DNA from: Candidatus Kapaibacterium sp.
Lineage (GTDB): Bacteria > Bacteroidota > Ignavibacteria > Kapaibacteriales > HRBIN21
Direction of reading: 5' to 3'
DNA: 64,000 nucleotides
Assembly: GCA_025059875.1 (NCBI GenBank)
Contig: JANXCT010000003.1
Span: forward strand, 68,176-132,175
The translations under genes were made by a program, and so were the position numbers. How positions within the stretch are numbered: position 1 is the stretch's first letter; each line of letters starts with the position of its first letter. Of this stretch, positions 14,814-39,445 are shown one piece after another. A model generated the notes under the pieces. That model saw nothing but the letters and a program-made list of their open reading frames with translations. It searched no databases and was not told the DNA's origin.

Positions 14814-14983
14814 GTTGTCGGCAAATCTACTTTGTGACCAATCCGCAACCCATTGCCATTCGTGGGTCCACCTGCGACATGGTCGGCAAATCTACTTTGT
14901 GATCAATCCTCAACTCACCCACGCGTCGAACGCTAGTCGTGATGGTTGCTGGCAAATCTACATGGTTTGTAGCAATCCGCAAT
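14814..14983 (-). repeat. Three direct repeats, each carrying a Bacteroidota-type promoter motif
   Basis: Three copies of a 36-40 base unit sit at 14814-14849, 14879-14914 and 14944-14983, with a 65-base period. Read on the minus strand, each holds TTG, a spacer and TAGATTTG. TAGATTTG occupies 14829-14822, 14894-14887 and 14960-14953, and the upstream TTG is 16, 16 and 19 bases away. TAnnTTTG with an upstream TTG/TTTG is the primary promoter consensus of Bacteroidota. All three point at the protease start at 14784; the nearest would give a leader of only about 30 bases. The intervening 29-30 bases are not repeated. Confidence 0.6.
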
Positions 14984-17900
14984 TACTTTGCGGTCGTCCC
15001 CCGATGCACAACTTTGAGAGTTTCTCTACGCCCCTCGTTATACTGAATATGCACCAGGTACACCCCCGCTGCTAACCCGCTCATCGGCACCACTACCCGC
15101 TCCTCCACCACACCCCTGTACACCTCCCGCCCATCCACGGACACCACCCTTACCGTCCCCCGCTCTGGCAGTAGCACCGTCAGCATCTCCTCCACCGGGT
15201 TCGGGTACACTACCGCCCACTTCTGAAGAGGAACCTCGCCATGATGCCCTATCACTGTTGTATCATATCTGACGCGCATCAAAATCCGGCTCCCCCATGG
15301 TGCCACTTGCACACGCCCCCACACTACTTGACTATCCAACGTCATGTACACCCATCCCCGCGGTAGCTCAACTGTGCGAACCGTGTCCGATGGATTGATG
15401 AAGATTGGAAACAGCTCCTCAAACGACGGCACCGTCTGCGGGTCAATCTCCTCGACGTTGTAGTAGCTCAGCCACACGGTATCTCCCGGCTCCATAACCA
15501 CGTGCGGCATTGTCCAGAACTGCCGAAACCGCGGCTGGTAATACACCCGCAGTGTGTCCCCCTTGTACGGCTGTCGCACCGGCAGGGCAAAGTGGTAGGG
15601 AATGATGATAGTATCTCCTGTATTCGGGTGAATTGTCCGCGGCCACCACACCGACCAGTACTCCTTTCGCCGATTGCTTGCCCAAAGGAGACTCCACCGG
15701 TAAATTTCGTTCGGTGCTGTAAGAGTGGAATAGAACGGCTCTCCACTAACCATTACAAAGCCCGCCCAGTGATTGCGAGCAGTATCTGGATACCAGAGCA
15801 TGACCGCAGGACCTCCCAGCGGTGAATTTGCCACTCGCTCCATCTGAACTCCGCCGAATGGCCGGATTGGCAGCGGCTCTATTTCCAACACTGCATTCCG
15901 TATCAGTTGCCGCTTCACACGAGCTGTATCCCACGCTCTCAGCTGCACCCACTCCAGCCACCGGCTCAGTGGCGATTGCTCGTACGGCGTTCTGCTCCTG
16001 AGCTGCCCGAAACCGTACACAAAATCCCTTCGTTCCTCCGCACTCCAGTGAAAGTATGCCGGAGCGTAGGTCGGCAGGGCGTAGAGGTTCTCGTTGACGA
16101 GGTCAAATCTGTCAGCTCTTCCGTTTCGAGAGTAGTCAAGGGCAGCCACAGCTGCTGTCCCATGCATTGGTCCAAAAAACACATTTCCTCTCACCTCACA
16201 CCCGCGGATTTCTGTTCCCTCCCCTGCTACTGCATCGGCACCTTGCACTCTGCAGTTGTAGAAGGTATTCCGGTAAATCTTGATGTTCCGGACCGGACCG
16301 CCTCCATAGTAGTTGTGGCACCCCAAGTCGGTACCAATTACAGTGTTGCCGTCCCAGACGACATCATGCGGACCAACATCGCTGTAGATGCCTATCGCAA
16401 AGGGCCTCACGATGTAGGCATGGTGGGACTTATCCCCGTTGTGGCCCTTGATGAGAATGTTGTTGCGCACAATTCCGTTCCTGCAGTAAAAGCCGAGCTT
16501 GATTGCTGCGCAGTCGGAGTGATGCATACAGAAGTTCGTGATGAGGTTCTTTTCTATCACAAACGGGATGGTTCCCTTGTATGCACTGTCCCATCGAGCT
16601 TCTGTGACGTAGGATGCAAAGATTCCTGCTTGGTCGGAGCTGTCAATGACGTTGTAGCGTACAATGACACTGTCAATGTTATGGCCCACAATGATGCCAC
16701 CAGTCTCCACCACAAACCGCGAGCTATCGACGCTTGCGGTTTGCCATGACCATCGGTGTGGGAACCCAGTCCGTTTGATTGTGTTGTGCTCTACATACAC
16801 CTTCCGCGTCATGCATCCAGGATGGCCAAGGAGTCTCGCAGGAGTTCTCCCGTACACGCAGACGGGAAAAACACCAGTGTCGAAGAACTTGTTATTGACC
16901 ACCGAAAGTCCTTCTGCAAGGAAGTTCCAAACTCCTCGGAAGCAGTCTGTGAACATGCAGTTGCGAATCGTTACATCCTTGACCCCTGCCAGTCGGACAC
17001 CTTCAACGAGCCGGGAAAAGTGAATGTTTTCGATAACAACGTTCTGGAGAGGAAAACGCGGAAGAGTGTCATACGAGATTGTGAGCACTAGCCCTCGAGA
17101 GAGATAGTTGATGTTTCGATTCGCTTGGTTGATCCCGATGACCATCATTTCGTACTGCTGCGGCTCAAAGGGAAGCTCTGGCGGCAAAAGGTACAGCGTG
17201 TCGGTCTGCTCGTCATAGTACCACTCGCCGGGCTTGTCAATGAATTCCCTTTTGCCCTCAAGGTAAAACCGGGAGCCTCGCAAAGGATAAGCCCATCCCC
17301 AACTAAGCGTGATCAAGCTGTCGCCCGCCTGCCGGATTACCTTCGAGCAGCCCCACGAGTAGTCAGCCCCAACTGAAGCCCACACAAGCGCTCCAGCCGC
17401 GGAGGGCAACGCCCCCTGCCCCCTGGCAAGAACAAGCGTATCGGGTTGAGAAGGGTCTTGTGCTCGGACGTTTGAAAGGATGAGCATGGTGTCGTTCGGG
17501 AAGCGTGCGGGAGTAAGAGGAATGCCTTTGTAGAACACCCTCAGTGGCATCAGGCTGTCGTGTCCCCCAAATGGCTTTGCCACTCTGACGATACCATCTG
17601 TCCCCACAACAATACTGCGCGCCGAGTCGCTCAAGCGCCATGTTCCCGTAATCATTGGAAGCGGCGCATCTGGAGGTCCGTAAGCTGTAATCACCACTGG
17701 CAAGCCAGGCTGTGTCAGGAGCCTGCTGTGGAGGCTAATCCAGTACGCCAGCGGACCCCACGACTGCGCATACACAACTCTGAAGGTATCTCCTCGCAGC
17801 AATGCGATTGTGTCCCCTCGCTGCAGCGCATCACCCCCGATTGCACCACCCCACAACAGATGCTGCAACATCTGCACCGACCTCAACGCGGTTGCCGGCG

Positions 17901-18021
17901 TCTTGCCATCATTCCTGTCGTCCCCCTGCGACGACGAAAAGTACCACGTCCGTTGACCAAACGCCACGTGGACACACAACCACCAGCTAAGCACAACGAT
18001 CGCTTTCAGCCGCAGAGCCAT
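14983..18021 (-). CDS. Secreted right-handed beta-helix protein with T9SS sorting tail
   Basis: A protein of 1,012 residues. I start at the ATG at 18021: it has the ribosome-binding sequence GGGAGAG and gives a clean signal peptide (MALRLKAIVVLSWWLCVHVAFGQ). The mature N-terminus RTWYFSSSQGDDRNDGKTPATA is the usual opening of parallel beta-helix enzymes such as polysaccharide lyases and epimerases. From about 330 to 620 there are beta-helix rungs with repeated NxI..N/NNx patterns (VVIENIHFSRL, VTIRNCMFTDC, VRYNVIDSSDQAGIFA, IVRNNILIKGHNG). A later region of about 250 residues is beta-rich and unassigned. The final 75 residues (VVYPNPVEEMLTVLLPERG ... GLAAGVYLVHIQYN) are a T9SS type A sorting domain. 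A polysaccharide-degrading or binding role is likely, but no catalytic set can be fixed by eye. The stop codon lies inside the third promoter-like repeat. Confidence 0.85.
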   Translation of the reverse strand: MALRLKAIVVLSWWLCVHVAFGQRTWYFSSSQGDDRNDGKTPATALRSVQMLQHLLWGGAIGGDALQRGDTIALLRGDTFRVVYAQSWGPLAYWISLHSRLLTQPGLPVVITAYGPPDAPLPMITGTWRLSDSARSIVVGTDGIVRVAKPFGGHDSLMPLRVFYKGIPLTPARFPNDTMLILSNVRAQDPSQPDTLVLARGQGALPSAAGALVWASVGADYSWGCSKVIRQAGDSLITLSWGWAYPLRGSRFYLEGKREFIDKPGEWYYDEQTDTLYLLPPELPFEPQQYEMMVIGINQANRNINYLSRGLVLTISYDTLPRFPLQNVVIENIHFSRLVEGVRLAGVKDVTIRNCMFTDCFRGVWNFLAEGLSVVNNKFFDTGVFPVCVYGRTPARLLGHPGCMTRKVYVEHNTIKRTGFPHRWSWQTASVDSSRFVVETGGIIVGHNIDSVIVRYNVIDSSDQAGIFASYVTEARWDSAYKGTIPFVIEKNLITNFCMHHSDCAAIKLGFYCRNGIVRNNILIKGHNGDKSHHAYIVRPFAIGIYSDVGPHDVVWDGNTVIGTDLGCHNYYGGGPVRNIKIYRNTFYNCRVQGADAVAGEGTEIRGCEVRGNVFFGPMHGTAAVAALDYSRNGRADRFDLVNENLYALPTYAPAYFHWSAEERRDFVYGFGQLRSRTPYEQSPLSRWLEWVQLRAWDTARVKRQLIRNAVLEIEPLPIRPFGGVQMERVANSPLGGPAVMLWYPDTARNHWAGFVMVSGEPFYSTLTAPNEIYRWSLLWASNRRKEYWSVWWPRTIHPNTGDTIIIPYHFALPVRQPYKGDTLRVYYQPRFRQFWTMPHVVMEPGDTVWLSYYNVEEIDPQTVPSFEELFPIFINPSDTVRTVELPRGWVYMTLDSQVVWGRVQVAPWGSRILMRVRYDTTVIGHHGEVPLQKWAVVYPNPVEEMLTVLLPERGTVRVVSVDGREVYRGVVEERVVVPMSGLAAGVYLVHIQYNEGRRETLKVVHRGTTAK

Positions 18022-18182
18022 GGCATCTCTCCCGTTGTGGCACGAGAAGTGCACTGAGAATAGCATACTGCTGTTAATCAACGGCTTTTTCAGAGACCTC
18101 GTTCCACGCGTCACCCAAAAGCATAACAGCGGAACCGCCTGTTGCACTACTTTTCCTAACCACCTCTCCCACTCGTTCACTA

Positions 18183-18210
18183 CGTTGCCAGCAAATCCAA
18201 CCCGCAAACG
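18183..18210 (-). repeat. Degenerate fourth copy of the promoter-like repeat
   Basis: The minus strand reads TTTGCGGGTTG directly joined to GATTTGCTGGCAACG. These are the two ends of the repeat at 14944-14983 with the middle part, including the spacer, deleted. TAGATTTG has become TGGATTTG. It lies about 160 bases before the beta-helix start and is probably no longer a promoter of the same kind. Confidence 0.35.
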
Positions 18211-18349
18211 CCACGAAGTCACCGATCGAAAAACAAAGCTACATCTGGGCCTGTGGTCGCTAGAGAGGACAGTACTTGCGGCGACCACCAGCCCTCTCCC
18301 TAGGAAAACGGAAGCAGCATACGAATTTTCGCATAGCTTACACAACCTT

Positions 18350-18770
18350 CGCACGCACGAAGCTGCGATTCGCACTATTGAAAAAGGCCATGTCTATAAT
18401 CCCACCGATCGGGATCTTTGCAGCCAGTATACATGGTCGCTGTCCCCCTCATCCTTGGGTGTCTAACCGCAGTCTACTACGGAGACGGGGTTGCTACAGG
18501 TCCGCGTATTGATGTGCTACGGAGGAAGATTGTCTGCGCGCGAGATCCGCAGTTTGCCAAAGACTACCATGACCCGGAAAAATGCTCGCTCGCAAACAGC
18601 CTCACTGTTGGACTCAACGACGCCACCCTCCTCGACGAAGTAGCCGCCGAGTAACCAATTCGTCACAAACGCTGGCGCAAAGAAGGCATTCCCGAGCTGC
18701 TCCAAAAGTTCAAGACAAACCTAGCACGAAGGTTCCCTGGAAAACACTGGACTTTAACACCGTTGCATAG
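18350..18770 (+). pseudogene. prpD: Decayed 2-methylcitrate dehydratase (prpD) C-terminal fragment
   Basis: Three pieces of PrpD can be read in order on the plus strand. THEAAIRTIEKG...YNPTDRD lies near 18355-18420. After a frame change at about 18430 comes QYMVAVPLILG-type sequence followed by IDVLRRKIV, KDYHDPEK and LANSLTVGLNDATLLDEV. After an in-frame TAA at 18652 the same frame continues PIRHKRWRKEGIPELLQKFK and NLARRFP. Intact PrpD has RDYxDPEKRSxANALTVxxNDGT and GHRxRRxEGIPxLxxKFxxNLARRFP in these places. PrpD dehydrates 2-methylcitrate in propionate breakdown. The N-terminal three quarters of the gene are absent, so this is a dead remnant. Confidence 0.65.
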
Positions 18771-24629: not shown

Positions 24630-25961
24630 TTACCGTCCGATAATCACCGGTCGTGCAAGTGTTGCAGACGTCGTCCGCAAAACGGCGACATACACACCTG
24701 CACAAAGATCACTCGGTATTGGTACAGCATAGCTACCGGCATCATGGTACCCTTCCAATACCACACCAGCATGTCTGCCCTGCACGTCGAAGAGCAACAG
24801 GCTAATAGCGCCCGGCTCTGGCAGAGTAAAGAGAATGTGAGAACCGTTGACGACAAGCGTTTCGCTCGAGGCAGGAAGCTGAACATCTGCAGAACTGACA
24901 GCGCTCGTACTGAGAATCCACCCAAGCATACGATTGAGGGATGCATTATATCCCCGACCAACAATGTATCGGCCATTCGGCGAAACCGCATATGCCTGCA
25001 TGAGACGAGAACCATCAGCAACAACACTGGGGTAGAGCAGCTCGATAAGTTTCATGCCGTCCTGTTCGGTCCACACAAATGCGCTGGTCTGGTTATTGTC
25101 GAACGTGATCTGTCCCACAACAGTTTTCCCATCAGCACTCACATCGTATGCTCGCCCGTATGCACCAATTGTCTGGATGTCGCGCATTCCACTGCTTGCT
25201 GTCCAGCGAAACGGACGCTCAACATTGGCAACGTTTGCAGACCAGCCGACAATGACACTTCCATCAGCAGAGGCAGCACGCGCTTCGCTGAGTGATCCTC
25301 CAAGCGTACCGAGGGTGTCATATGTACCCGCATACCAACGAAAGGCGATGCTCCGGGTGTTGTCGAGCGTTGTTGCATTCCCAACAATCGTTGTCCCATC
25401 TCCGGAAACGCCATGAGCAATGCTCCCTGCAAACTCGGTCGCTGGCAGTATCCGGGCAGCATCGCTCCCAACCCAGCGAACCGCATGGAAAACGCCGGTA
25501 TTGTCCGCGTTTGAGTAGCCTACAGGAATGTCTCCCCGGGCAGAGAGAGCCACTGCACCCGCTTGGTATCCGTTTGGTCTGATTGCGTGGAGCACTTCCG
25601 GTTCGCTCTCAGTCCACAGGGCACCGCGCTCGCCATTCGGCGTTGCGATGATGCCAGCTATCACCTGTCCATCAGCGCTAATAGCACGGGCTTCGTCGGA
25701 GGGAGACTGCGCAATTGAATCAAGTATCTGGAGCCCTGTTGCAGCCGACCACCGGACTGCACGACGGATCTCTGTTGCTAAGTTCGCTGGGTTTGGATAA
25801 GCTATCATACCAACCGCAACCCCTGCATCATTGACATCCCAAGCGGTGCTATTGGTAATAACCCTCGTCTGCTCAAAAAGCCACCACAACTGCTGTGCGG
25901 TAGCTGTACCCGATAGCAGAAGCACAGCAGCGACTGCTGTATAAACAAAAGCACGCGTCAT
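24630..25961 (-). CDS. HAF-repeat secreted protein with T9SS sorting tail
   Basis: A 443-residue exported protein. The ATG at 25961 opens a signal peptide (FVYTAVAAVLLLSGTATAQQ). About seven repeats follow, each built around ARAISADGQVIAG/ VSADGKTVVG and FRW or VRW pairs. This is the HAF-family extracellular repeat, thought to form a beta-propeller. The last 80 residues (LPEPGAISLLLFDVQGR ... DLCAGVYVAVLRTTS) are a T9SS sorting domain. A paralogue lies decayed at 38010-39288. HAF proteins have no established function; surface display is inferred from the sorting tail. Confidence 0.85.
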   Translation of the reverse strand: MTRAFVYTAVAAVLLLSGTATAQQLWWLFEQTRVITNSTAWDVNDAGVAVGMIAYPNPANLATEIRRAVRWSAATGLQILDSIAQSPSDEARAISADGQVIAGIIATPNGERGALWTESEPEVLHAIRPNGYQAGAVALSARGDIPVGYSNADNTGVFHAVRWVGSDAARILPATEFAGSIAHGVSGDGTTIVGNATTLDNTRSIAFRWYAGTYDTLGTLGGSLSEARAASADGSVIVGWSANVANVERPFRWTASSGMRDIQTIGAYGRAYDVSADGKTVVGQITFDNNQTSAFVWTEQDGMKLIELLYPSVVADGSRLMQAYAVSPNGRYIVGRGYNASLNRMLGWILSTSAVSSADVQLPASSETLVVNGSHILFTLPEPGAISLLLFDVQGRHAGVVLEGYHDAGSYAVPIPSDLCAGVYVAVLRTTSATLARPVIIGR

Positions 25962-26735
25962 GGCAACACTTGGTCTACGAGTGAGACAGCAACTCTGCAC
26001 AAACTTTTTGTACAAACTTATGAACGACGCTTTGCTTCCCTGCAACAATTCCATCGGTGATACGGGGACAGTCGTCGCGATAGGATATTTTCAATAATCG
26101 CTCGATGTGCGAAAAGAATTCCTCCGCCGGTGGACAGCCCCTATCTTCCTGTAGCAAGGGGAGAGATTGGAGAGGCCCCGGACGCTGCCAGCACAGAAGC
26201 AATGTCCACAGAGCATCCAACACAACCCCATGGCACATCTCACTAACAGCTCCAACCCCCGAATGCCCACGAGATCATAGAGCACCCATCAAGCTAAGAC
26301 AGCACTGTAGGCTCTGTCGCCCCAGAGGAGCCTCGATTTTCTGGCTATACTGTAAGTTTGCGTGTGTTTTCATAACACACGGGTGAACTTCTTCGCTTTT
26401 GAGAGAGCTGAAGGCAACACGCTAACACCGGTTCAGGGCCGTGCTGGTGATACATGCCCCTTCCAGAAGTGCAGGAAGCTCCCAGCGATGCCGAGGGAAT
26501 GGCCCTAACGGGGCAGGTGTAAGGTGATCAGGGCTCTTGCTCGCTAAGACCGTATAGTATGGGCATTGCGTACATATTGCTCACCCAGAGGGTTGAGACC
26601 CACCAAACGACTACAGGGGCGGTGGACCTCCCTCACCGAGACAGCGAGTCCCCTCCCATATCTCATCGGAACCCTGCAAAGCAGCACAGAGTTCTATCAC
26701 CGTGGTTGTGTCCCATCCTCGCAGGAAGCTGTTCC
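25962..26735. other. Long intergenic leader region before the barrel/giant-protein module
   Basis: About 770 bases without a recognisable gene. Two small signals are visible on the plus strand: a TAAGTTTG at 26353-26360 that fits the -7 element of Bacteroidota promoters, and directly after it a perfect 7-bp hairpin GTGTGTT/AACACAC (26362-26380, loop TTCAT). The hairpin lacks a T-run, so it is not a standard terminator. Either could belong to the control of the downstream three-gene module, with a leader of over 350 bases, but this is conjecture. Confidence 0.35.
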
Positions 26736-28355
26736 ATGTGGTGGATTTTTCTCGCTTTCTTGGGCCTCCTCAGCATTCCTTCCACAGCTCAGTGGATTCG
26801 CGCCAGCGGCTCACTTGGCGCCTCTGCTGACATGTACCGAACCTTTGGCAGCAGCACACGGTTGCCGTCACAGAGCTACCGTGCAATCGCTCGGTTCACT
26901 GTTCACCTGTTCGACCAGGTTGACCTGCCCTTTGAGGTATACCTGAACAGTGGTCGGATTGGCTACCTGCAGCCCTTCAACCAGTTCGGTGTCACCCCAC
27001 GCATCGGAAACTGGCTGCAACTGTTCGGTGGGTGGTACTCCACCCGCATCTCCGACTATACTTTCGGCGACCAGCGCATCCTTGGAGGCGGTGTAGAGCT
27101 GACCCCCGGCAACCTCCGTCTCGCCTTCCACTACGGCTACACGCGGCAGGCGCGGAACCCAGACATCGCTTACCGCTTCTACGGGGAGTACCGGCGCCGC
27201 ACCATCATCGGCAAGCTGGGCTATGAAGCCCCCGGAGGGAGCTTTTTGACACTCCAAGCGATGGCCTCACGGGATGAGGCAGGCTCTATCCGCCGCGATA
27301 GCCTCACCCCGCCACCGCAGGCGAACGCCGTCTTCTCGATTGCGGGCGGAGTCGGAATTCTGGAGGGCACAGTGCGCTTCCGCGGCGAGCTCGCCTTTAG
27401 TCTCTTCACGAACAACACAGGGGCTGAGCCCGATAGCGCAGGTATCCTCAATCTCCCATCCTTCACACAACGCCTTCTCCCCATCAATACCACCTCCCAC
27501 ATTGATGGGGCTGCCCGTGTCAACCTGGCCGTCACTCCCAGTCCGCTCTGGGGTATCACGCTCGATGGACAGTGGATTGGCCCTGGCTTCGTGACGCTCG
27601 GCTTCACTCAACTGTTCAACGATGTCTTGGACTTGGGCGCCTCCCCATACGTGCGCCTGTTCAACGGAAGGCTCCTCGTACGGGCGACGGTGAGCCGAAG
27701 GACCAACAACCTACGCCAGACCCGCATCGCCACTACCGAACGCTGGACCACAACCGGTGGCATCTCCTGGCAGCTTACGGACGCTCTCTCTCTGGACGTG
27801 CAGGCAGCACAGTATACGATGAGTTCCGACCACGCCAACGACACGCTGCGGGCGGACAACCGTACCCGCACCCTGACTCTGACCCCGTCTTGGCGCTTCC
27901 GGGCGTGGGGAGCCGATCAGTTCCTCTCTGCCGCCGTGACATACCAGCACGCGAGTGACCGCAACATCCTCAGCGGTCGCTACGGCACGAGCTCCGCGCT
28001 CAGCGCCTCCCTCTCGCACTCGCTTCAATTTCGCTCCAAGCTCAACCTGAACACCTCCCTCAACGTCAGCCGCACGGATACCTACTTCCAAGACATCACC
28101 TTCGCGACCCTCAGCGAGTCGCTGACCTACCCCTTTGCTGAGCGCCTCGCCCTCCGTGCATCCCTGAGCTTTGGGATGACGAGCGCAGCCCTCACGGCTT
28201 TCCAGCTATCCCTCCGCAGTGGCTTGACCTACTCTTTGGAAGAGTGGGGTAGCTTTACGCTCTATCTGACGAGCAACACCTATGACCTGACAGCTCGGCA
28301 CGGCAACCGCTACACTGAGCTGTTCGGAAGCTTGCAGTACTCTGTCAACTTCTGA
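26736..28355 (+). CDS. Outer-membrane beta-barrel protein (first gene of giant-protein module)
   Basis: A 539-residue protein. I start at the ATG at 26736, preceded by GCAGGAAG and followed by a signal peptide (MWWIFLAFLGLLSIPSTAQ). The whole mature chain consists of alternating amphipathic strands with aromatic girdle residues and short turns (IGKLGYEAPGGSFLTLQAMA, LFGGWYSTRISDYTFGDQR, SLRSGLTYSLEEWGSFTLYL) and ends in the C-terminal Phe (LQYSVNF) typical of BAM substrates. I count enough strands for a large barrel but cannot fix the number. No plug or TonB-box is evident. It is 35 bases upstream of the giant protein gene, which suggests co-expression and perhaps an anchor or export role for it. 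Confidence 0.8.
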   Translation: MWWIFLAFLGLLSIPSTAQWIRASGSLGASADMYRTFGSSTRLPSQSYRAIARFTVHLFDQVDLPFEVYLNSGRIGYLQPFNQFGVTPRIGNWLQLFGGWYSTRISDYTFGDQRILGGGVELTPGNLRLAFHYGYTRQARNPDIAYRFYGEYRRRTIIGKLGYEAPGGSFLTLQAMASRDEAGSIRRDSLTPPPQANAVFSIAGGVGILEGTVRFRGELAFSLFTNNTGAEPDSAGILNLPSFTQRLLPINTTSHIDGAARVNLAVTPSPLWGITLDGQWIGPGFVTLGFTQLFNDVLDLGASPYVRLFNGRLLVRATVSRRTNNLRQTRIATTERWTTTGGISWQLTDALSLDVQAAQYTMSSDHANDTLRADNRTRTLTLTPSWRFRAWGADQFLSAAVTYQHASDRNILSGRYGTSSALSASLSHSLQFRSKLNLNTSLNVSRTDTYFQDITFATLSESLTYPFAERLALRASLSFGMTSAALTAFQLSLRSGLTYSLEEWGSFTLYLTSNTYDLTARHGNRYTELFGSLQYSVNF

Positions 28356-28390
28356 AGTCGGAGATGTCCAACACCAGTAGCAGGGCAGCT

Positions 28391-31300
28391 ATGAACCTCC
28401 GACGCCTCGCATCGGCTCTCTTCTGTGCCGCCACCCTCTGGGGGCAGCCATTTGAGGTCGTCGTCAACGTGCGGAATCCCGCGCCGTTGTCGCTGGAGAC
28501 CTGGCGCACTGATCCGAGAGTCGTAACCCTCCAGGTCTTCAACCAGGGCACGTCTGAACGCCGAATCGTCCTCGGGATTGAGCTCATCAATCGCACGACG
28601 AACCAGAGTGCAAAGACCAACATCTGGCATCCCTGCATGCCAGTCTTCACAATCCCGGCACGAGGGATGACGACCATCTTCGGTCCACAGCTTATCTGCG
28701 AAGCCTCTCTGGAGATTGACCCAGGAATCCGCACAGCCGTCGCCACCGCCGGAGCTATCCCTGAGGGCGACTACCAGTTCTGTGTGACTGTCTACGATGC
28801 CGACAACCGGAACATCCGCTATACGGACGTCGGCCAATTCTGTGCCACCACACGGGTAACCTGGCCTGAGCCGCCGGTCCTCATCTACCCCTTGAGCAGC
28901 GATCCTGCCCAGCGGTGTGACCAGCCCATTATCCTCCGGTGGCAGCCCCTCTCGCCCCCACCGCCGACCCCGGTCCGGTACCGAGTCCGCGCCGTTGGGA
29001 TGTTCGAGGGACAGACCCCAAGGCAAGCCCTGGACGCGGCCACGCCGACCGAGACCGTCGTTGACGATGTCACGTTGGAGACGAACTACCGAATCGCGCC
29101 CAACAATTCGGTGCTCCTGGACTTGGCGCAGCGGCGCGCCCCACGCCTCGTCGGGATTGCTTGGCAGGTAGAGGCACAGGACGAGAACGGCACTCCGATT
29201 CCCACGCGCGGCGGTACACGCGGCAGAAGCGACATCGGCTCGTTCGCTGTGGAGTGCCCGAATGCGGGCTCCACAGCTTCTTGCACCGGTCCGATGACGC
29301 TCGGGGCCTACTATCCCCTCAACGCCGATACCATCCCTTGGGTCCCACCGCTCATGGTGGTGCAGTGGGGGCCATACTGTGAAGACGTCGTGCAGATGCA
29401 GTACCACCTCATCGTCATGGACATCCGCGAAGGGGGGCCTGTATACGACAATGAGCGCGTCCTCCGCTGGCCGCGTGGCCCAATTGACGGCCAAGGCCTG
29501 ACAGGGCAGCCCAACGCCCAGGAGCGCGCGCGCCTCATCATCGTCAACCAGTGGGACGAGGGAGGCAACTTCGTTGCGTGGAACCGTGATCTCCGCCGCG
29601 GGACCACCTACCGCTGGGGCGTCAACGCTCGCCTCACCCGCCGCGAAGGGCGCGATGAACGAGAGCACTCTGTCACAACCGGCGTCCACACCTTCAATCT
29701 TGGCTTGCGCATGCCGACGAACCCCAACCCACCGAACGGCGCCACCGTAACGGAGCGCCGTGGCTTGTCTCTCTCGTGGCACATCCCGGAGCCTGCCGGC
29801 TTGACGCGCGAGTTCATCGCCGAGCTCTTAACCCTGCGAGGCGGAGGACGTGCTGGTATGGCGTTCGCTGAAGCTGCAGAGGTCGTCCGGGTCGTCGTAT
29901 CGCGCGACTCCACCTTCCGCACCCCTGTTGCAAGTCGCACGCTGAGATTCCCCGCCAGTGGCAACTACATTAGCTTCGATGAGCGGGTCCGGGAGATATT
30001 CGGCACCAAGCGCGCGGAGTGGCGCGACCTGAACCTCAGCGACGGTGTCTACTACTGGCGCGTCGAGTACTACGATCCCTCCGATACGCTCACCCCGTAC
30101 CGCAGGGGACCTATCTGGCGCTTCCAGGTCGGCTCCGGGGTGACGGCTGAAGAGTGCTTCCGCCTGCGCCCGAGCAACCCAGCGCACCGAGCGACCATCT
30201 CCGTACCGCGCGGCGGAGCGCAGATACCTTTCGAGGTCACCGCCGAACCCCCGATACGCCTCTCGGAGGTGACTGTCTGCCGGTTCCGCATCTGGGAAAT
30301 GACCCGTCCCGATGAAGACCCCGCCACAGTCCGCTCCCGGTCGCCGCTGCTGGATATCACGCAGAACCGCCGCGATGGCTCCCTCCAGCTCCGCGAACTC
30401 AGCAACAACGGTTCAATACAACGCATCGCGCTGGAGTTGATTAACACCCCTGCCGCACGACACACCTTCACGCCCACGATTGGGCGGACTTACCTCTGGG
30501 AGTGCGAGTTGCAGTTCCAGGGCGAACGGATCCGCGCCGACGGCACCCCCTGCACTCTGCGGGAGAAGCGGTGTGAGGCCGTCTTCACCGTCCGTTCCAG
30601 CGAATGCGACGACCCCTGCGTGGCAACCCCCCCGAGCAACACCACACCGTTCAGCGGCAGCCTCAACCCCGGAGACATCATCCGTATTGGGCACTTTGAG
30701 GCAGTTCTGGAGCAGGTCTCCGGTTCCCCTTCCCGCCTTTCGGGCCAGGCGCTGGTGCGGCTGCCGTGGTTTGACCTCCGCGTGCGGGCCCGCTTTGAAA
30801 ATATCGCCGTCAACACTGACCGCCAAGTCTACGAAGGTGAGCTCGAGGCAGTGCAGGAGGAGGACTCCCCCATCCCTGAAGAGCTCGCGAATCGTTTGAC
30901 CGGCGGCCTCGGGCTGGACTCAGCCCAGTTAGCCCGCATCCATGAGTACATCACCTCCCGACGACGGCTCGTGAGCTTGTTCGTGGACCGAGAGGTGAAG
31001 CTCCCGCTGGGCTTTGACCGCACGATTGACGGCTTCCAGTATACAATTGGGCTCATCGGCATGGTCTTCCGACCCGACGGCGCTTACCTCAACGCCGTGC
31101 AGGTCATCCGGCTGAATCTCCTTGACCGCGAGCACACCTTCGGGGTAGGTGCCCGGAACATCTGCTTCTCGCCGAACGGCATCGGCCGCTCGGTGGAGTT
31201 GTACCTCGCCGAGGACCGCGTCTACACGACCGATGGCGAATTCGTCGTCAAAGTCAAAGCACAGCAGAGGGATGGTGGTGGGGGCGCACCAGCAGACTCC

Positions 31301-34300
31301 GGTACCTATGTCCGCTTCTCCTGTGCTGGCTTTGAGTTCCTGCGTGTCGCCGTAGATGTGGAGTTCCCCCGCTCCTGGATGCTCCCCTCACCCGACAACG
31401 GGCGGGACAAGGTTACTCTACGCCTGCGCGCCCATGTGCGGAATACTGGTGACTTCCTCGCCACCGGCACTATCACGCCCTTCAGCCCCTCCGGTGCGCC
31501 CGGCTTCGTGTTTACGTGCGACAACGTCGCCGTTGACTGCTCCGATCGGGATAACCCACCGGACATCAGCTTCCCACCGGGATACAGGGGGGAGACCACC
31601 ACGCGATGGCGCGGCTTCTACCTGAACCGCCTCAGCATGCGCTTCCCCGAGGGGATTCGCGGCTGGAGGGGCCCAGAGCCGCCGAGCGTCGGCATCCAGA
31701 ACGTCATCATCGACCAGAGTGGCGTCAACTTTGACATCGTAGCGCTCAACATCCTCCGCTACCCCGAAGGCAACCTCGGCGGCTGGGGCGGGAGCATTGA
31801 TACGATTGGCCTACGTGTGCTGAACTCCTCTCTGGAGAGCGGCTGGATGAGCGGGAGCATCCGGGTGCCGGTGAGCGACTCGGCACTGGCGTACTCCGCA
31901 ATCCTGCGTGACACCACTGGCGGTATTCGCTTTGAGTTCACCGTGCGCCCACGTGGACGCCTCAACATCCCCATGTGGGCAGGGACGCTGGAGTTGGAGA
32001 ACACCTCCTGGGTCCGTATTGAAGCGGGCGCAGGCACCCGTGGTGGATTCGCAGCCCGGGCGAACTTCACCGGGCGCATCTCCTTCGGTGGAACCCGTGA
32101 CATTCCTCTCAACATGGGTGGGATTAGCTTCCAAGAGATGCAGATTCAGACGCACCAGCGTCCATACATCACCGTACGACACTGGTCGTTTGCTTCTCCG
32201 CCGCACAACATCTTAGGTTCTCCTGAACCCGAGCCGCCTCCGAGCGGCGGAAGCGGCTCAGGCAGTAGGAGCGCCGGCGGCTTCCCCATCAGTATTCGGG
32301 GATTTGATCTCGTCAGCGGTGACCGCCGTGAAGGCCCAGGAATTGGAGTCCGCATTGGCATAGATGTCAACCTCCAGCCCGGTGGAGCTGGCATCAGTGG
32401 TGGAACGACGATCTCCATCTGGGGTGCTCTCAGTACCGGCCGCGACAGCCCGCCATCGTTCGTGTTCAGCGGGATAGACCTGGACTCCATCGGCATCCGC
32501 GCCGACATGGGGGCAGTTGAGATCGAAGGCTCGGTCCGGTTTTACAACAACGATCGCACGTACGGGAACGGCTTTCGCGGAGCGGTGCAGGCAAACTTCG
32601 TCCGCATGGTCCGAGTGGAGGCAACGGTACAGTTCGGCTCTATCAGCGCACCGCAGGCATATCGGTATTGGTACGTTGATGCCCGTGCCCTCATTGCCAG
32701 CGGGATACCGGTGTTCAGCGGCGTCGCTATCTACGGATTCGGTGGAGGCGCATGGTACAACATGGTGCGGGCAAGCGATCCTTCAGCCATCAATCCTACC
32801 GGCGGTAGCGAAACAAGAACGACCGCCAGCAGTGCCTCACCAGGCTCGACGAACTCAGGCGCTCGGTATGTGCCCTCTTATTCGGATCGTGGTGAGACCT
32901 TTGGGTTCTATGCGCTGGTTACAATCGGGACCCATCCAGAGCCCAAGGCCTTCAACTGCGACGTGCGGCTGGAGGTGAGCTTCGCTGGTGGGGGGATCCG
33001 CGAAATCAGCTTGCGGGGTGATGGCTGGATGCTGGCAGGCCTGATGGAGCGGGGTCAAGCCCCTGTGAGGGCCACTGCCGAAATCTCGTATAACTTCCCT
33101 GAGCGCACTTTCTTTGGTCAGTTCGGCCTGTCGGTGAACCTTGAAGCAGCAACAGCATCAGGCAGAATGGTCCTGTTCTTCTCCCCCGAGACGTGGCACA
33201 TCAAGATTGGCGATCCTGAGGGAGAGCGGATTCGGGTAGAGGTACTTCGCATCATTACCTTGCAGGCGTACTTCATGGCGGGAATGAACCTGCCGTCCAT
33301 CCCACCAATTCCCCCTGAGGTCCTTGAGCTTACTGGGCCAGTCCCGGCCCCGGTGCGTCCTGAGGCGTTGGGACGCGGGAACGGCTTCGCCTTCGGCGCA
33401 ATGGCAGACTTCAACCCTGGAGAACTCCGCTTCCTCATCTTCTACGCCTCCATGCGATTCCTCGTAGGGTTTGACATGGCATTGCTGGACTATGGCATCA
33501 CAGCCCGATGCGCCGACGGCCGTCCGATGGGTGCTAACGGGTGGTACGCCACTGGGCAGATGTATTCTCGGCTGGATGCCTCCATTGGCCTCTTCGTTGA
33601 CCTCTGGTTCGTGTCGGGCAAGTTTGAGATTCTTGGGATGAGGGTAGGCAGCGTGCTGCAGGCAGGGCTGCCGAACCCAACCTGGATTGCGGGCGCCGTT
33701 GGTGGCCACTACAGCATCCTCGGTGGGGCCGTCAGTGGGTACTGTAACTTCCGGTTCACGCTCGGCGAGCGCTGTGTCCCTCTGACGGAATCGCCGCTGG
33801 CAAGCCTGGAGATGATCAGCGATGTTGCCCCGAGCGACGGCTCGGAGGATGTCTCTGTCTTCGCCGAACCGACGGCGTTCTTCAACCTGAAACCGGACCG
33901 TCCGTTCGCGCTGGAGGAGATGCGCGACGACGGCAGCCGAGCCACGAAGGTGTACCGGATCCGTGTCGGGACCTTCCGGCTGCTTCGGCAGGACACCCGA
34001 GGGAACTTCAGCGTCACTGTGCCTACAACTCAAGTAGACCGTTCAACGCCGGAAGCCCCAGCGGTTGCGCTCGTTCCGAACGAACCGCTGCTGGGGTTGA
34101 CCCGCTACCGAGTTGAGGTCTCCGCCTACGGACAGGAGTACACGGGCAGCGGCTTTGCACGCCGGGAAGGCGAGACGGTTGAGCAGGCAAGCGAGCGGGC
34201 TGCACGCGAGCTGGCAAGCTCTACAGCGTGGAGCGACGTACGGTACAGAAGGGGCGACCGCGCAGGGCAGCGGATTGAACAACGGGTTACTGCAACATTC

Positions 34301-35752
34301 ACCACCCAGCCGCGGCCAGATACGATCATGCCCCAGTGGGTCTATATGGGCTATCCGCGCCCGCAGCAGCGCTTCTTCCTGCAGGATGAGTGCCGCGAGG
34401 GCTCCATTACTCTGCTGACGAACCCGGACTGGCTCTTCCCCAGTAGAGGGAGCGAGGTACGAGCAGGAGACACCATCCGACTCTACCGCGTACGCCTCGT
34501 CAACCTTCGCACGGGCGAGCGCACGGAGGTGCCGCTGACCTACACTCGGATTCCACGCCCCCTGGCGCTTGGGGAGACGAGCCCCTCGGGCTCCTCTGGC
34601 GGGCGGATCCTGTTCTCCATCCCACGGTTGGAGAACAGCGCTATCTATGCCGTCCAAGTCATCCGACGCGATTCCGTCATACGTCGGGCTGCAGCGAGTG
34701 GCCCCGAAGGTGGGACACCGCGCATAGACGAGCGGTACCTCCGCGGTACGGGCGTTGGGGGACCAGCCGGATCCCAGTACACGGGCATCGTCCAGCAGCG
34801 GATGATGGACCGCCTCGGAGCTACTCTGGTCATTCGGCGGGTCTACCGTCCCTCGGGCTTTGACGTTGGGCGCGCCGTCGCCAGCAACGAGAAGCTCCTC
34901 TACGCCTACTTCTTCCGAACGAGCCAGTACAACCGCCTGCAGGAGAAGCTCCGCCACCTGACAGTCCAGCGAGTTGACTCGGTCCGAGTAATTGCAGCCT
35001 TCGTCCCCATCGTTGGTCTGGTCTGCCACGTCTCCTCCCCTGAGGGCTTTGACCCCTATGACGTGCAGAAACAGACTATCACCGCGGCGCCGGACGGCAG
35101 GACGGAGCGGGAGTACCTCATCCCACCGCTCATTCACGTCTCCGGCACTGACCGGAGTGGGCTCTGGCACCGACTCTTCGTCAATCCGAGCGTGTACGAC
35201 GAACTGAGATGGGTATCGGGACTCCCGCCCAGCAGCTCCACCGTTGCCCAAGCCAATTGGGACTGGACTCGTGCGGTATTGCGAGGCTACTGGATGGTCT
35301 CCATCCCTCAGACCAGCCACCGGCCGCTTAGCACGGTAGAGATTGGAGCAGCGACTGGCGATCCGACGTACACTCGCCTGCTTGCTCTCCGGGACATGGC
35401 AAGAATGCTGCGCATTCGGCTTGACGATGGTGGTATCGGAGGAATTGACATCCGGCCCCCAGCGGCTGCAACGACAAGCTTCTTCTATGCACAGCCGACT
35501 TACGTGCTCTTTGACCTGGGGCGCCTCACACGCGAGGCTTCCAGACTGCTGTCGCTTGAGGGCGTCTGTAGCCGAAACAGCTTAGGGGTCGGTCCCCTCC
35601 TCAACAGAGAGCAATGCAGCCGTCTGCGGAGTATTGCCGCACAGCAGTTCGTCTTCCCAATCCGCGCTGCCGACTACCTCATGCACTTCACGTACTCAGA
35701 ATGCGTAGATCCTGACCGTGTCGCCAGCTACCCACTCCGTATTCCGTACTGA
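28391..35752 (+). CDS. Giant secreted multidomain surface protein (2,453 residues), function unknown
   Basis: The longest gene in the window. The ATG at 28391 starts a signal peptide (MNLRRLASALFCAATLWGQ). A first domain of about 120 residues (FEVVVNVRNPAP, then IPARGMTTIFGPQL) is followed by four Ig/fibronectin-like domains to about residue 750, with openings such as PVLIYPLSSDPAQ and NPPNGATVTERRGLSLSW. Near 760 lies a new domain (GDIIRIGHFEAVLEQVSG ... VNTDRQVYEGELEAV). A long beta-rich stretch runs to about 1270 (SIDTIGLRVLNSSLESGWMS). A Gly/Ser/Pro linker at about 1277-1297 leads to a second beta-rich block (about 1300-1800, many GGG and aromatic strands, almost phage- or barrel-like). 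An SbsA-type Ig domain at about 1800 (VAPSDGSEDVSVFAEPTAFF) and a 600-residue tail ending RVASYPLRIPY complete it. There is no T9SS tail. Giant proteins of this general build next to fibronectin-III proteins occur in Bacteroidota; I recall no proven function. Confidence 0.85.
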   Translation: MNLRRLASALFCAATLWGQPFEVVVNVRNPAPLSLETWRTDPRVVTLQVFNQGTSERRIVLGIELINRTTNQSAKTNIWHPCMPVFTIPARGMTTIFGPQLICEASLEIDPGIRTAVATAGAIPEGDYQFCVTVYDADNRNIRYTDVGQFCATTRVTWPEPPVLIYPLSSDPAQRCDQPIILRWQPLSPPPPTPVRYRVRAVGMFEGQTPRQALDAATPTETVVDDVTLETNYRIAPNNSVLLDLAQRRAPRLVGIAWQVEAQDENGTPIPTRGGTRGRSDIGSFAVECPNAGSTASCTGPMTLGAYYPLNADTIPWVPPLMVVQWGPYCEDVVQMQYHLIVMDIREGGPVYDNERVLRWPRGPIDGQGLTGQPNAQERARLIIVNQWDEGGNFVAWNRDLRRGTTYRWGVNARLTRREGRDEREHSVTTGVHTFNLGLRMPTNPNPPNGATVTERRGLSLSWHIPEPAGLTREFIAELLTLRGGGRAGMAFAEAAEVVRVVVSRDSTFRTPVASRTLRFPASGNYISFDERVREIFGTKRAEWRDLNLSDGVYYWRVEYYDPSDTLTPYRRGPIWRFQVGSGVTAEECFRLRPSNPAHRATISVPRGGAQIPFEVTAEPPIRLSEVTVCRFRIWEMTRPDEDPATVRSRSPLLDITQNRRDGSLQLRELSNNGSIQRIALELINTPAARHTFTPTIGRTYLWECELQFQGERIRADGTPCTLREKRCEAVFTVRSSECDDPCVATPPSNTTPFSGSLNPGDIIRIGHFEAVLEQVSGSPSRLSGQALVRLPWFDLRVRARFENIAVNTDRQVYEGELEAVQEEDSPIPEELANRLTGGLGLDSAQLARIHEYITSRRRLVSLFVDREVKLPLGFDRTIDGFQYTIGLIGMVFRPDGAYLNAVQVIRLNLLDREHTFGVGARNICFSPNGIGRSVELYLAEDRVYTTDGEFVVKVKAQQRDGGGGAPADSGTYVRFSCAGFEFLRVAVDVEFPRSWMLPSPDNGRDKVTLRLRAHVRNTGDFLATGTITPFSPSGAPGFVFTCDNVAVDCSDRDNPPDISFPPGYRGETTTRWRGFYLNRLSMRFPEGIRGWRGPEPPSVGIQNVIIDQSGVNFDIVALNILRYPEGNLGGWGGSIDTIGLRVLNSSLESGWMSGSIRVPVSDSALAYSAILRDTTGGIRFEFTVRPRGRLNIPMWAGTLELENTSWVRIEAGAGTRGGFAARANFTGRISFGGTRDIPLNMGGISFQEMQIQTHQRPYITVRHWSFASPPHNILGSPEPEPPPSGGSGSGSRSAGGFPISIRGFDLVSGDRREGPGIGVRIGIDVNLQPGGAGISGGTTISIWGALSTGRDSPPSFVFSGIDLDSIGIRADMGAVEIEGSVRFYNNDRTYGNGFRGAVQANFVRMVRVEATVQFGSISAPQAYRYWYVDARALIASGIPVFSGVAIYGFGGGAWYNMVRASDPSAINPTGGSETRTTASSASPGSTNSGARYVPSYSDRGETFGFYALVTIGTHPEPKAFNCDVRLEVSFAGGGIREISLRGDGWMLAGLMERGQAPVRATAEISYNFPERTFFGQFGLSVNLEAATASGRMVLFFSPETWHIKIGDPEGERIRVEVLRIITLQAYFMAGMNLPSIPPIPPEVLELTGPVPAPVRPEALGRGNGFAFGAMADFNPGELRFLIFYASMRFLVGFDMALLDYGITARCADGRPMGANGWYATGQMYSRLDASIGLFVDLWFVSGKFEILGMRVGSVLQAGLPNPTWIAGAVGGHYSILGGAVSGYCNFRFTLGERCVPLTESPLASLEMISDVAPSDGSEDVSVFAEPTAFFNLKPDRPFALEEMRDDGSRATKVYRIRVGTFRLLRQDTRGNFSVTVPTTQVDRSTPEAPAVALVPNEPLLGLTRYRVEVSAYGQEYTGSGFARREGETVEQASERAARELASSTAWSDVRYRRGDRAGQRIEQRVTATFTTQPRPDTIMPQWVYMGYPRPQQRFFLQDECREGSITLLTNPDWLFPSRGSEVRAGDTIRLYRVRLVNLRTGERTEVPLTYTRIPRPLALGETSPSGSSGGRILFSIPRLENSAIYAVQVIRRDSVIRRAAASGPEGGTPRIDERYLRGTGVGGPAGSQYTGIVQQRMMDRLGATLVIRRVYRPSGFDVGRAVASNEKLLYAYFFRTSQYNRLQEKLRHLTVQRVDSVRVIAAFVPIVGLVCHVSSPEGFDPYDVQKQTITAAPDGRTEREYLIPPLIHVSGTDRSGLWHRLFVNPSVYDELRWVSGLPPSSSTVAQANWDWTRAVLRGYWMVSIPQTSHRPLSTVEIGAATGDPTYTRLLALRDMARMLRIRLDDGGIGGIDIRPPAAATTSFFYAQPTYVLFDLGRLTREASRLLSLEGVCSRNSLGVGPLLNREQCSRLRSIAAQQFVFPIRAADYLMHFTYSECVDPDRVASYPLRIPY

Positions 35753-35766
35753 GGGAGGGAACGGCC

Positions 35767-37899
35767 ATGAAGGGCGTACTGCTCTGGCTTGTGTGGCTCC
35801 TGACCTTAGCAGCTTCGAGCATTGCCCAAGAGAGGACGACGACCAGAAGGCCAGCAGAGATGGCGCCACCAGACACAGCGGCCCTCCAGGAGTACCGCGA
35901 GCTTATAGCGCCGAAGCTGCATCTTCTGGCACAGTCATATGGGGATTCGGTCGTGCTGCGCTGGGCACCCTCCAACGCCCCGGCGTGGCGTGCGTACAAC
36001 CGTATTGGGTACATCGTGGAGCGGGCGCTTGTGGACACCACTGAGAGCGGTCCGCTCCGGTACGAACGGCTCACCCCGGAGCCCTTGAAGCCCTGGACGC
36101 TGGAGGAGTGGAGACGCCGCAGCCGGCCCGAGCAACAGTTCGCTGCCATTGCGGTGCAGTGCCTCTACGGGGCGCTCTCCATCCCGAACCCAAACACGAT
36201 GCAGAACTTCATTGACGCGGCCAGCGAGCTGGAGAACCGCTTCGGATTTGCCCTCTTCGCCGCTGACTGCGATGCGCACACGGCCAATGGTTTAGGGCTC
36301 AGGTGGGTGGACCGTGCCGTCCGCCAGGGGCAGGTGTGGGCGTACCGCGTCTTCCCGGCGCGGTTGGACTCCGTGTTCCTGCTGGACACTGCCTACGTGG
36401 TGGTCCACATTACCCCGTACCGACCCTGGCCGCCTGTGCTGGAGCTTACCGCCGAAGGGCAGGACCGCGAGATCACGCTCCGCTGGAAGAACTTCCCTGA
36501 GGGGGGCTACACGGGCTTCAACGTGTACCGCAGCGAACCAGGTGGCCGCCGCACGAAGCTCAATACTATGCCGATCGTACCGGCCACTCCCCGCGGCTGG
36601 TCCCAACGCATCGAGCCTTGGTTCAGCGACACAACGGCCCGCTGGGGCGTGGAGTACACCTACGAAGTCCGGGGCATCAACCCCTTCGGCGAAGAGGGCG
36701 AGCCTGCCGTGGTCCGCGCCAGTCTGCGCGACCGCACGCCACCCCCACTGCCTGTGCTGAAAAAGCCCATCCTCTACGGCATGACGATGGTGCGCCTGGA
36801 GTGGGAGATCAAGGAGACGCCCGACCTCAAGGGCTTCTTCGTGCTCAAGAGCGACAAGCCAGATCAAAACTGGCGCCTGCTCCACGACCAGCCCCTACCG
36901 CGCACGCAGCGAAGCTTCCTGGATACCCTTGCAGACCCCGACTTCCCCCACTACACCGTCATTGCCATTGACACGGCTAATAACTTCAGCGACTACCTGC
37001 CCATCTACGTGGACATCTACGACACTATCCCGCCAGCGCCCCCTACGGGCGTCCGCGGCACGATTGACACCAACGGTGTCGTCCGGCTGGAGTGGAACTT
37101 GGGCACAGAGCGTGACCTCCTGGGGTACCGCGTCCTCTGGGCCAACGACACCACGCACGAATTCACGCAGCGCACAAACCTCGTCTGGACCGACACCGTC
37201 TTCTACGACACGGTTGCCATCAACACGCTGACGGAGTACGTGTACTACCGCGTTGTGGCGGTGGACAACCGGTACTTCCACTCCGATCCATCGCCCATCA
37301 TTGCGCTGAAGCGGCCAGACGTTGTCCCGCCGGTAGCACCCGTCTTTACGGATGTGCGTGTCTTCGCAGACCGCGTCGTCCTGACGTGGAACCCTTCCAC
37401 CAGCACGGACGTTGCCAAGCACGTCCTCTACCGCCGTGCCCGAGGCGACACGGGCTGGACCGTCCGCGCCGAGCTCCCTGCTACCGCACAGCAGTTTACC
37501 GACACTGCCGTCGTTGAACGGGTGACGTACGACTACACCCTGGAGGCGGTGGACCGCACTGGCCTCCGTTCGGAACGGGCACTGCCGGTCCCGGCGCGCC
37601 CCTACGGCACCGTGGAGCGGCCGCCCGTGGAAAGTGTCCGCGCGGCGTATGATAGCGCCCGAGGGGTTGTTGTCGTGGAATGGAGCTACACCCCACGTTC
37701 CACCGAGCGCCACTGGTACGTCCTCTACCGCGCCGTTGACGACAACCCGCTGCAGATGTACCGCACCATCGATCCTCCGGCGCAGCGCTTCGTGGATGCC
37801 GAATTGGTCGGGCGTGGGCGCTACCGGTATGCCGTCCGTGTCATGACGGCGAACGGACAGTCCCCGCTGTCGGAGGAACAAGAGGTCGAAGTGCGGTAG
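35767..37899 (+). CDS. Secreted fibronectin type III repeat protein, partner of the giant protein
   Basis: A 710-residue protein with a signal peptide (MKGVLLWLVWLLTLAASSIAQ) and a very strong ribosome-binding site (GAGGGAGGGAACGGCC) 14 bases after the giant gene stop. An N-terminal domain reads DSVVLRWAPSNAPAWRAYNRI followed by IVERAL, a fibronectin-like start. Five or so typical fibronectin III domains follow from about 225 to the end, each with a VxLxW strand and YxYxVxA/VD element (ITLRWKNFPEGGYTGFNVYR, VVRLEWNLGTERDLLGYRVL, VVLTWNPSTSTDVAKHVLYR). PP(A/L)P linkers separate them. No catalytic domain and no T9SS tail. Tight spacing to the giant gene makes joint expression almost certain; a complex with it and the barrel is an inference. 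Confidence 0.88.
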   Translation: MKGVLLWLVWLLTLAASSIAQERTTTRRPAEMAPPDTAALQEYRELIAPKLHLLAQSYGDSVVLRWAPSNAPAWRAYNRIGYIVERALVDTTESGPLRYERLTPEPLKPWTLEEWRRRSRPEQQFAAIAVQCLYGALSIPNPNTMQNFIDAASELENRFGFALFAADCDAHTANGLGLRWVDRAVRQGQVWAYRVFPARLDSVFLLDTAYVVVHITPYRPWPPVLELTAEGQDREITLRWKNFPEGGYTGFNVYRSEPGGRRTKLNTMPIVPATPRGWSQRIEPWFSDTTARWGVEYTYEVRGINPFGEEGEPAVVRASLRDRTPPPLPVLKKPILYGMTMVRLEWEIKETPDLKGFFVLKSDKPDQNWRLLHDQPLPRTQRSFLDTLADPDFPHYTVIAIDTANNFSDYLPIYVDIYDTIPPAPPTGVRGTIDTNGVVRLEWNLGTERDLLGYRVLWANDTTHEFTQRTNLVWTDTVFYDTVAINTLTEYVYYRVVAVDNRYFHSDPSPIIALKRPDVVPPVAPVFTDVRVFADRVVLTWNPSTSTDVAKHVLYRRARGDTGWTVRAELPATAQQFTDTAVVERVTYDYTLEAVDRTGLRSERALPVPARPYGTVERPPVESVRAAYDSARGVVVVEWSYTPRSTERHWYVLYRAVDDNPLQMYRTIDPPAQRFVDAELVGRGRYRYAVRVMTANGQSPLSEEQEVEVR

Positions 37900-38009: not shown

Positions 38010-39288
38010 TCACCGCACGACTACGAACCGTTCAGCGGCCACCATCTCCCCGGCACGGGCGACGACCGTGACACCCCCGCAGGCAATGCCGGCAGCAGCA
38101 GCGACGCTATGCCGAAGGCTGGGACGTCACATCCTACCCCAGCAACACAACGCCCCAGCGTGTCCACGACTTCTACTCGCTCCAAGGTCCCCTCGTGCTG
38201 GACACGCACCTACCCCTGCCCCTCCACGGGTTGGGGTTCCACCCGCAGCAGAAGCAATGCCGCAGGGCTATTTGCCACCGGAGTTACTTCCTCCCGTATC
38301 CAGCAGGTAGGCCTCTAACCGCCTAGCCCTGGCGTTGTAGCCAGCACCGACGATGAAGCGACCATTCGAGGAGATCCCTCTCGGCCGATGTCAACCTGGA
38401 GCCATCCTGCAACAGACCGGCATAGAGGACGTTGAGGTCCTGCATCCCTGTCCCCTGCGTCCAGCGGAAGGCACGGGATTCATCTGATGTCACCTCCGCC
38501 GCTCCCACAACGACGCTGCCATCACCCGAGACATCGAGGGCACGACTATTCCCACCCCCAAGGCTGCCCAAATCTTGCATAGTTCCATTCCGCCAACGAA
38601 AGGCACGCCAGCGCGCTCCCGTTGCATCCATGGCCTCTCCAACGATGACCGAACCGTCCTGCGAGATACCGTTCGCCCGACTCATCCCATACCCCGGCAG
38701 CGAGCCGAGCGTTTGCATACCCGCCTCTGTCCATCGGAAGGCGGTGATGGAGAAACTGGTCGGGTCGAGCATATGGCCTGCAACGACAGCTCCATTCCCA
38801 GAAACCCCCCGGGCTTCACCTACCCTATCGCCTGAGATACTTCGCATCTCCCTAGCCCCGCCACCGAAAGGCCCGCTGCATTGGGACGGAGGTCCCCCCG
38901 TTGATACACCCACAATAACCGAGCCGTCGTCAGAAACATCGTACGCCACACTGGGGCTTACACCGAGCGTCCCCAAGTCTACCATCCCCGTCTGTGCTGT
39001 CCAACGAAAGGCCCGGATGGCACCATTAGCGCTGTCGGCCTCGCCGACGATGACCAGGCCGTTTGCCGAAACTGCGCGGGCGACACTACCCCGTCCCCCG
39101 AAAGTCCCCAGCTCCTGAATGCCCGTTGCCGCAGTCCAGCGGAATGCCTGTGCAAGTTCCGCGCCATCTGTCAGGTATCCGACGACCACCGAGCCATCGG
39201 CTGAGACGTCCAGAGCAACGCTGTACGGCTGGTTGCCCGTCCCCAGCCACACTAAGCGCTGCCCTACTGCCTCAGCGCAGAGCATCAA
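38010..39288 (-). pseudogene. Decayed HAF-repeat/T9SS protein
   Basis: Up to about 38385 the frame encodes seven HAF repeats (VSADGSVVVGY, ISQDGSVIVGEAMDATGARW, VSGDGSVVVGAAEV). An extra base near 38382 then shifts the frame. In the next frame the expected GISSNGRFIVGAGYNARARR and AYLLDTG are readable. A further shift near 38268 leads to NSPAALLLLRVEP, and then VEVVDTLGRCVAG and LPAG in another frame. A last shift near 38085 gives VTVVARAGEMVAAERFVVVR and a stop at 38010. These last parts are a T9SS sorting tail. The signal peptide is also interrupted by an in-frame TGA about 24 bases upstream of the 39288 start. With at least three frameshifts the gene is dead, unlike its paralogue at 24630-25961. 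Confidence 0.8.
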
Positions 39289-39445
39289 GACAGCTACTCA
39301 AAGCCCTGCCGCGCACCTCATTGGACCCTCCACGAGTTTGGTGGAACACCTCACGACGCCGTAAAAATTGTTGAGCGCGAAGCCCGTGGGGCAAATCTGC
39401 GCTTTCTCCTCTAGGAAAACGCTGCGGACCCGTTCCGCAGGAGCC

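Follow-up and report, generated by a model that had tools for sequence, protein, structure and literature searches.

A barrel, giant and fibronectin-III gene module of Kapaibacteria with a TANFOR-like domain and a possible role in surface display

In the genome of Candidatus Kapaibacterium sp., a hot-spring bacterium, the gene for an exported protein of 2,453 residues (the giant) stands between the genes of a putative outer-membrane barrel and of a protein with fibronectin-III (FN3) domains. The locus raises the question of how such a giant could reach the cell surface and stay there. Known T9SS cargo need a CTD, and NCBIfam scans found no T9SS sorting domain of type A or B on the barrel, the giant or the FN3 protein. 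The scans agree with the first-pass annotation, which had seen no T9SS tail on the three proteins though such tails occur elsewhere in the window (the whole 64,000-nucleotide stretch of DNA analysed). Type A tails are encoded there at 14983-18375 (above the cut-off) and at 24630-26054 and 55409-60046 (both just below it), and no SprB repeat was seen in the window proteins scanned. The gene for the SprA translocon is present in the source genome.

The three genes and the parts of the giant

The window is part of a 1.97-Mb genome (G000), to which one other genome (G005) is nearly identical. The locus has the following features.

26736..28355, + strand: barrel gene (A3), ORF of 539 aa with a C-terminal Phe; signal peptide at 26736-26792
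28391..35752, + strand: giant gene, ORF of 2453 aa, exported protein
28391..29290, + strand: giant residues 1-300, N-terminal domain (A2), related to TANFOR by profile and including the signal peptide (alignment A2)
29291..30625, + strand: giant residues 301-745, insert confined to the closest families (from blockwise identity along the giant alignment)
30626..33910, + strand: giant residues 746-1840, core (A1) of ~1,095 residues with VNTDRQVYEG near its start (alignment A1)
33911..35749, + strand: giant residues 1841-2453, C-terminal tail, no toxin domain (blockwise identity)
35753-35759, + strand: strong Shine-Dalgarno sequence GGGAGGG, 7 bases 5' of the FN3 protein start
35767..37899, + strand: FN3 gene (A4), 710 aa with signal peptide (Pfam fn3 5e-9, alignment A4, FN3 tandems by PDB profile)

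The ORFs, the gaps of 35 bases (barrel to giant) and 14 bases (giant to FN3) and the strong ribosome-binding site described in the first-pass annotation were all confirmed, and the three genes are co-directional. An alternative ATG upstream, at 28364, would give a giant of 2462 aa. The short gaps, and the strength of the ribosome-binding site that precedes the FN3 gene, suggest a single transcript for barrel, giant and FN3 protein. Inspection by eye identified an apparent Sec signal peptide on all three proteins (...IPSTAQ before W, ...ATLWGQ before P and ...ASSIAQ before E), none with a lipobox cysteine. Giant orthologues in two related genomes (G031 and G051) align over almost their full length at 63-65% identity, and comparison with G031 gave identities of 65% for the giant, 78% for the FN3 protein and 66% for the barrel. 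The genes are under strong purifying selection (dN/dS ~0.09-0.13 against G031, at a dS near saturation). Downstream on the minus strand, a HAF-repeat gene (38072-39321) is apparently frameshifted, with the break near 38290-38380; a 439-residue orthologue of the HAF-repeat protein (L051) matches this region in two frames.

The window giant matched no Pfam or NCBIfam model up to E=1 and no toxin domain was found in it. Its core carries 68 invariant columns across 14 aligned sequences and is conserved across the order in the giant alignment, and none of the aligned members has a Pfam family in this region. Neither the core nor the N-domain had a significant PDB profile match. The insert probably adopts an Ig/FN3-like fold, an assignment made by inference. 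Blockwise alignment identity of the tail declines gradually between genera, and an abrupt swap is absent. The segment containing VNTDRQVYEG, for which a family search had been recommended, falls close to where the conserved core begins; the core family is present in 27 of the 248 genomes sampled.

Weak matches of the A3 family to OMP_b-brl, OMP_b-brl_3 and DUF2490, together with aromatic C-termini (F in 42 and W in 3 of 56 relatives, or 45/56), suggest that the protein encoded upstream of the giant is a barrel-like outer-membrane protein. One A3 relative also matched DUF5777 above the cut-off. The window barrel itself had no Pfam or NCBIfam match up to E=1, its profile search of the PDB returned nothing, and an AlphaFold2 model from the single sequence without alignment was discarded (pLDDT 31). 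An LptD-like barrel, suggested by weak profile matches to ~900-residue proteins, was rejected once those examined turned out to be N-terminally extended barrel relatives (800-910 aa), encoded between FecR-domain and CHASE2 genes (L112:1518-4244, L116:2380-4782) and with no LptD match. Weak matches of this kind recur in many of the genomes sampled from the phylum. Neither the core profile nor the barrel profile matched anything in viral contigs.

The FN3 protein had been annotated correctly. Pfam and NCBIfam found fn3 domains alone in it and the PDB profile search returned FN3 tandems alone; the AlphaFold2 model, again from the single sequence without alignment, was discarded (pLDDT 34). In several lineages a TPR protein of ~650-695 residues adjoins the FN3 protein (L117:14665-16695, L118:2951-4963, L121:2931-5015, L126:1357-3315, L136:14750-16831) and is possibly a fourth component. 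In one family (f5), a core-type giant is followed by a different protein of ~659 residues in the place of the FN3 protein (L037:3295-5271, L039:4187-6163, L040:5011-6864), with OmpA-like segments discernible by eye.

Co-occurrence and gene order in the phylum

A phylum sample of 248 genomes was searched with one profile each for the core (A1), the N-domain (A2), the barrel (A3) and the FN3 protein (A4); few candidates were scored per genome, so that absences are soft. The core was found in 27/248 genomes, every one of which (27/27) also had the other three. Thus, giant homologues do not occur mostly without the barrel or the FN3 protein, and the proposal of a dedicated three-gene surface module is supported. 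The N-domain was more widespread (57/248 genomes) and was accompanied by the barrel in 57/57. The barrel profile matched in 97/248 genomes, 60 of them with the stronger matches used for the tally, and the FN3 protein in 29/248 at E<1e-60. Hypergeometric tests gave log10 P of about -33 and -29 for co-occurrence, values uncorrected for phylogeny and computed over related genomes that are not independent.

Neighborhood conservation, proposed earlier as a check, was found throughout the phylum. In a tally of all listed matches from the four profile searches, 30/30 core loci have an FN3 gene that lies no more than 20 kb away and shares their strand. Similarly, a barrel lies within 20 kb of 81/100 N-domain loci, on the same strand in 81/81. 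Of the 63 giants fetched, 40 have the barrel immediately upstream and 41 have the FN3 protein immediately downstream, fractions that are biased by loci having been picked from matches rather than blindly and by contig ends cutting some of them. The usual order is barrel, giant, FN3 protein and at times giant, FN3 protein, barrel.

The same gene order surrounds giants of 2,000-4,100 residues that have the N-domain and lack the core. For this reason the constant set is the N-domain, the barrel and the FN3 protein, with the core as one of several bodies. N-domain and core are separate proteins of one locus in G229 (L115), Persicobacter and Emticicia, and the fusion of the two in one chain in Kapaibacteria links what these others encode separately. 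In another genome (G243), a SprB-repeat protein with a Por_Secre_tail is encoded between the FN3 protein and an N-domain giant.

The link to TANFOR proteins

The first-pass annotation described similar giants paired with FN3 proteins in Bacteroidota as being without a known role. This no longer holds, as relatives of the N-domain group with TANFOR, a described class of polymorphic toxins that have Fn3, SprB and CTD neighbors (Jana, Salomon and Bosis 2020, PMC7073777). Relatives in the A2 alignment match the TANFOR model (TIGR02542) at up to 1.5e-13, under its curated cut-off, and those with the same core score at most 53 bits, where the cut-off is 67. The window giant gave no match up to E=10, and a TIGR02542 search of the phylum sample returned two matches, both weak. 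In the reverse direction, proteins identified independently by TIGR02542 (L054, L057, L059, L060, L062, L140, L141) fit the A2 profile at 1e-57 to 1e-72. The N-domain of the giant is, by these profile comparisons, a distant homolog of TANFOR.

The two systems share large Sec-exported Bacteroidota proteins with related N-domains, Fn3 neighbors and T9SS in the genome. SprB and CTD proteins are present at some TANFOR-like loci, and the window itself has CTD proteins and an adjacent Fn3 gene. The window giant differs from TANFOR toxins in falling below TIGR02542 detection and in having a 1,100-residue core, a linked barrel and no toxin tail. Genomes with TANFOR proteins encode T9SS in >95% of cases, and T9SS export of these toxins was offered as a guess in the 2020 paper, whose text does not contain the word 'barrel' (PMC7073777).

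Plasmid records provide examples of the link. On pEMTOL03 of Emticicia oligotrophica, the barrel directly precedes a 2719-residue N-domain giant that contains FN3 and an SprB repeat and ends in a WHH nuclease, which is followed by a SUKH immunity gene, a transposase gene and then a protein matching the core. Persicobacter sp. JZB09 has a barrel, a core protein, an FN3 protein and a separate N-domain giant, and Runella sp. SP2 has a barrel, a giant and an FN3 protein. Fragments on pQD2021 of Bergeyella porcorum match all four profiles, and genes annotated with a deaminase domain, SprB repeats and T9SS tails lie among them.

A putative anchor or shuttle for the giant

The model that we favor, to which we give an even chance, is that barrel, giant and FN3 protein form one surface-display module in which the barrel serves as the giant's anchor or shuttle with T9SS, in a toxin-free version here. 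It starts from what was observed: gene order, signal peptides, purifying selection, co-occurrence, the split between N-domain and core, and a toxin with its immunity gene in relatives. From there the model predicts a physical complex, a docking site, an export route and an extracellular position. Sec would export all three proteins and the barrel would insert in the outer membrane as the giant's cognate anchor or shuttle. The TANFOR-like N-domain may then dock on the barrel, and the giant would cross the outer membrane with the aid of T9SS (or of the barrel itself) and remain attached outside, where the 1,100-residue core and the FN3 protein may build an extracellular structure. The module could thus be the chassis of TANFOR-type systems, the same parts carrying or accompanying C-terminal toxins elsewhere in Bacteroidota. 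The version in the source genome, with N-domain and core fused, would be toxin-free and structural or adhesive, a role proposed because the window giant has no recognizable toxin.

A T9SS-linked anchor or shuttle is favored because the genetic relation resembles that of SprB and SprF and because SprA is present in 57/57 sampled module genomes, a count that may reflect phylogeny. Each type B T9SS adhesin relies on a cognate barrel, a member of the PorP/SprF family that is often encoded adjacent to it (PMC9143113, PMC12618676). Both systems occur in T9SS genomes and place the gene of a giant surface protein beside that of its cognate barrel of the outer membrane. Unlike SprB, the window giant has no type B CTD, and the module has an extra FN3 partner. 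Furthermore, A3 barrels are larger than PorP/SprF (~540-600 aa versus ~300 residues) and lack a match to the PorP/SprF model, both among 14 A3 members (Pfam, E up to 1) and for the window barrel (NCBIfam). The relation is most likely analogous, not homologous. Several findings weaken the model. The giant has no CTD of the kind that known T9SS cargo require, some barrels lack a neighboring giant (L098, L099 and the second barrel of the source genome itself), family f5 encodes a barrel and a giant with no adjoining FN3 protein, and distant barrel relatives sit between FecR and CHASE2 genes.

The first-pass annotation had supposed that the giant reaches or keeps its place by a different means, possibly via the barrel. 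Barrel and giant did prove very strongly linked, but with SprA present in all sampled module genomes, passage via T9SS or alongside it is no less likely than export via the barrel. In its fullest form, this alternative makes the barrel a T9SS-independent pore that exports both the giant and the FN3 protein, neither of which has a T9SS tail. The adjacent and co-directional barrel and giant genes found throughout the phylum are consistent with it, and recall two-partner secretion (TpsB/Omp85) in that a barrel gene adjoins one for a giant exported protein. However, Pfam searches for POTRA, Omp85 and TPS domains found none in the barrel family or the window proteins, no other transporter domain was found in the family, and a self-sufficient exporter would not need the SprA of every module genome. 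We consider such a pore unlikely.

A second alternative, which we regard as improbable, is a structural adhesin or matrix apparatus with no tie to toxins, from which toxin loci merely borrow a display domain. It would account for the toxin-free window and for most mapped loci, at which no toxin was seen (family searches for toxin domains covered a few relatives), and is in keeping with the FN3 and Ig-like architecture and with the T9SS cargo in the upstream flank. What chiefly separates it from the anchor or shuttle model is whether the link to toxins is a functional one. Least probable, and hardly tenable for this locus, is that the giant is itself a TANFOR-class polymorphic toxin with delivery and immunity parts as neighbors: its N-domain is related to TANFOR, one relative ends in a nuclease toxin with an immunity gene next to it, and Fn3 and SprB are enriched in TANFOR neighborhoods (PMC7073777), but a toxin role was rejected for the window giant on the absence of a toxin domain and a tail conserved, not swapped, between genera, and the gene directly 3' encodes the FN3 protein and nothing immunity-like.

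Returning to the anchor or shuttle model, we tentatively suggest an extension of it, with less confidence than the model itself, in which the barrel is a third T9SS-linked partner beside PorV and PorP/SprF and reads a TANFOR-like domain at the N-terminus rather than a tail at the C-terminus. If true, Bacteroidota would have a route for displaying CTD-less giants and toxins. The module points to a way of bringing giant proteins to the surface that lacks a description in the open-access literature. Conservation of the core and the barrel extends across the phylum, yet their window representatives lie outside Pfam and NCBIfam families. Present in every sampled N-domain genome and adjacent at most loci, the A3 barrel is a concrete candidate partner for CTD-less giants and addresses the question of how these proteins, TANFOR toxins included, are exported. 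Its role can be tested by single gene deletions in cultured Emticicia oligotrophica, Runella and Persicobacter.

The source genome has a second set comprising a 1770-residue N-domain giant, an FN3 protein and a triple-rotamase-domain protein (L147:2978-12434, G000:C1), and its second barrel lies ~87 kb from this set, beside a GWxTD-domain gene (L097:6909-10034, G000:C1). In family f4, a divergent gene encoding an IgGFc-binding protein (PF17517) flanks the module, together with one for a protein of ~255 residues (L033:2269-5435, L036:1233-4426).
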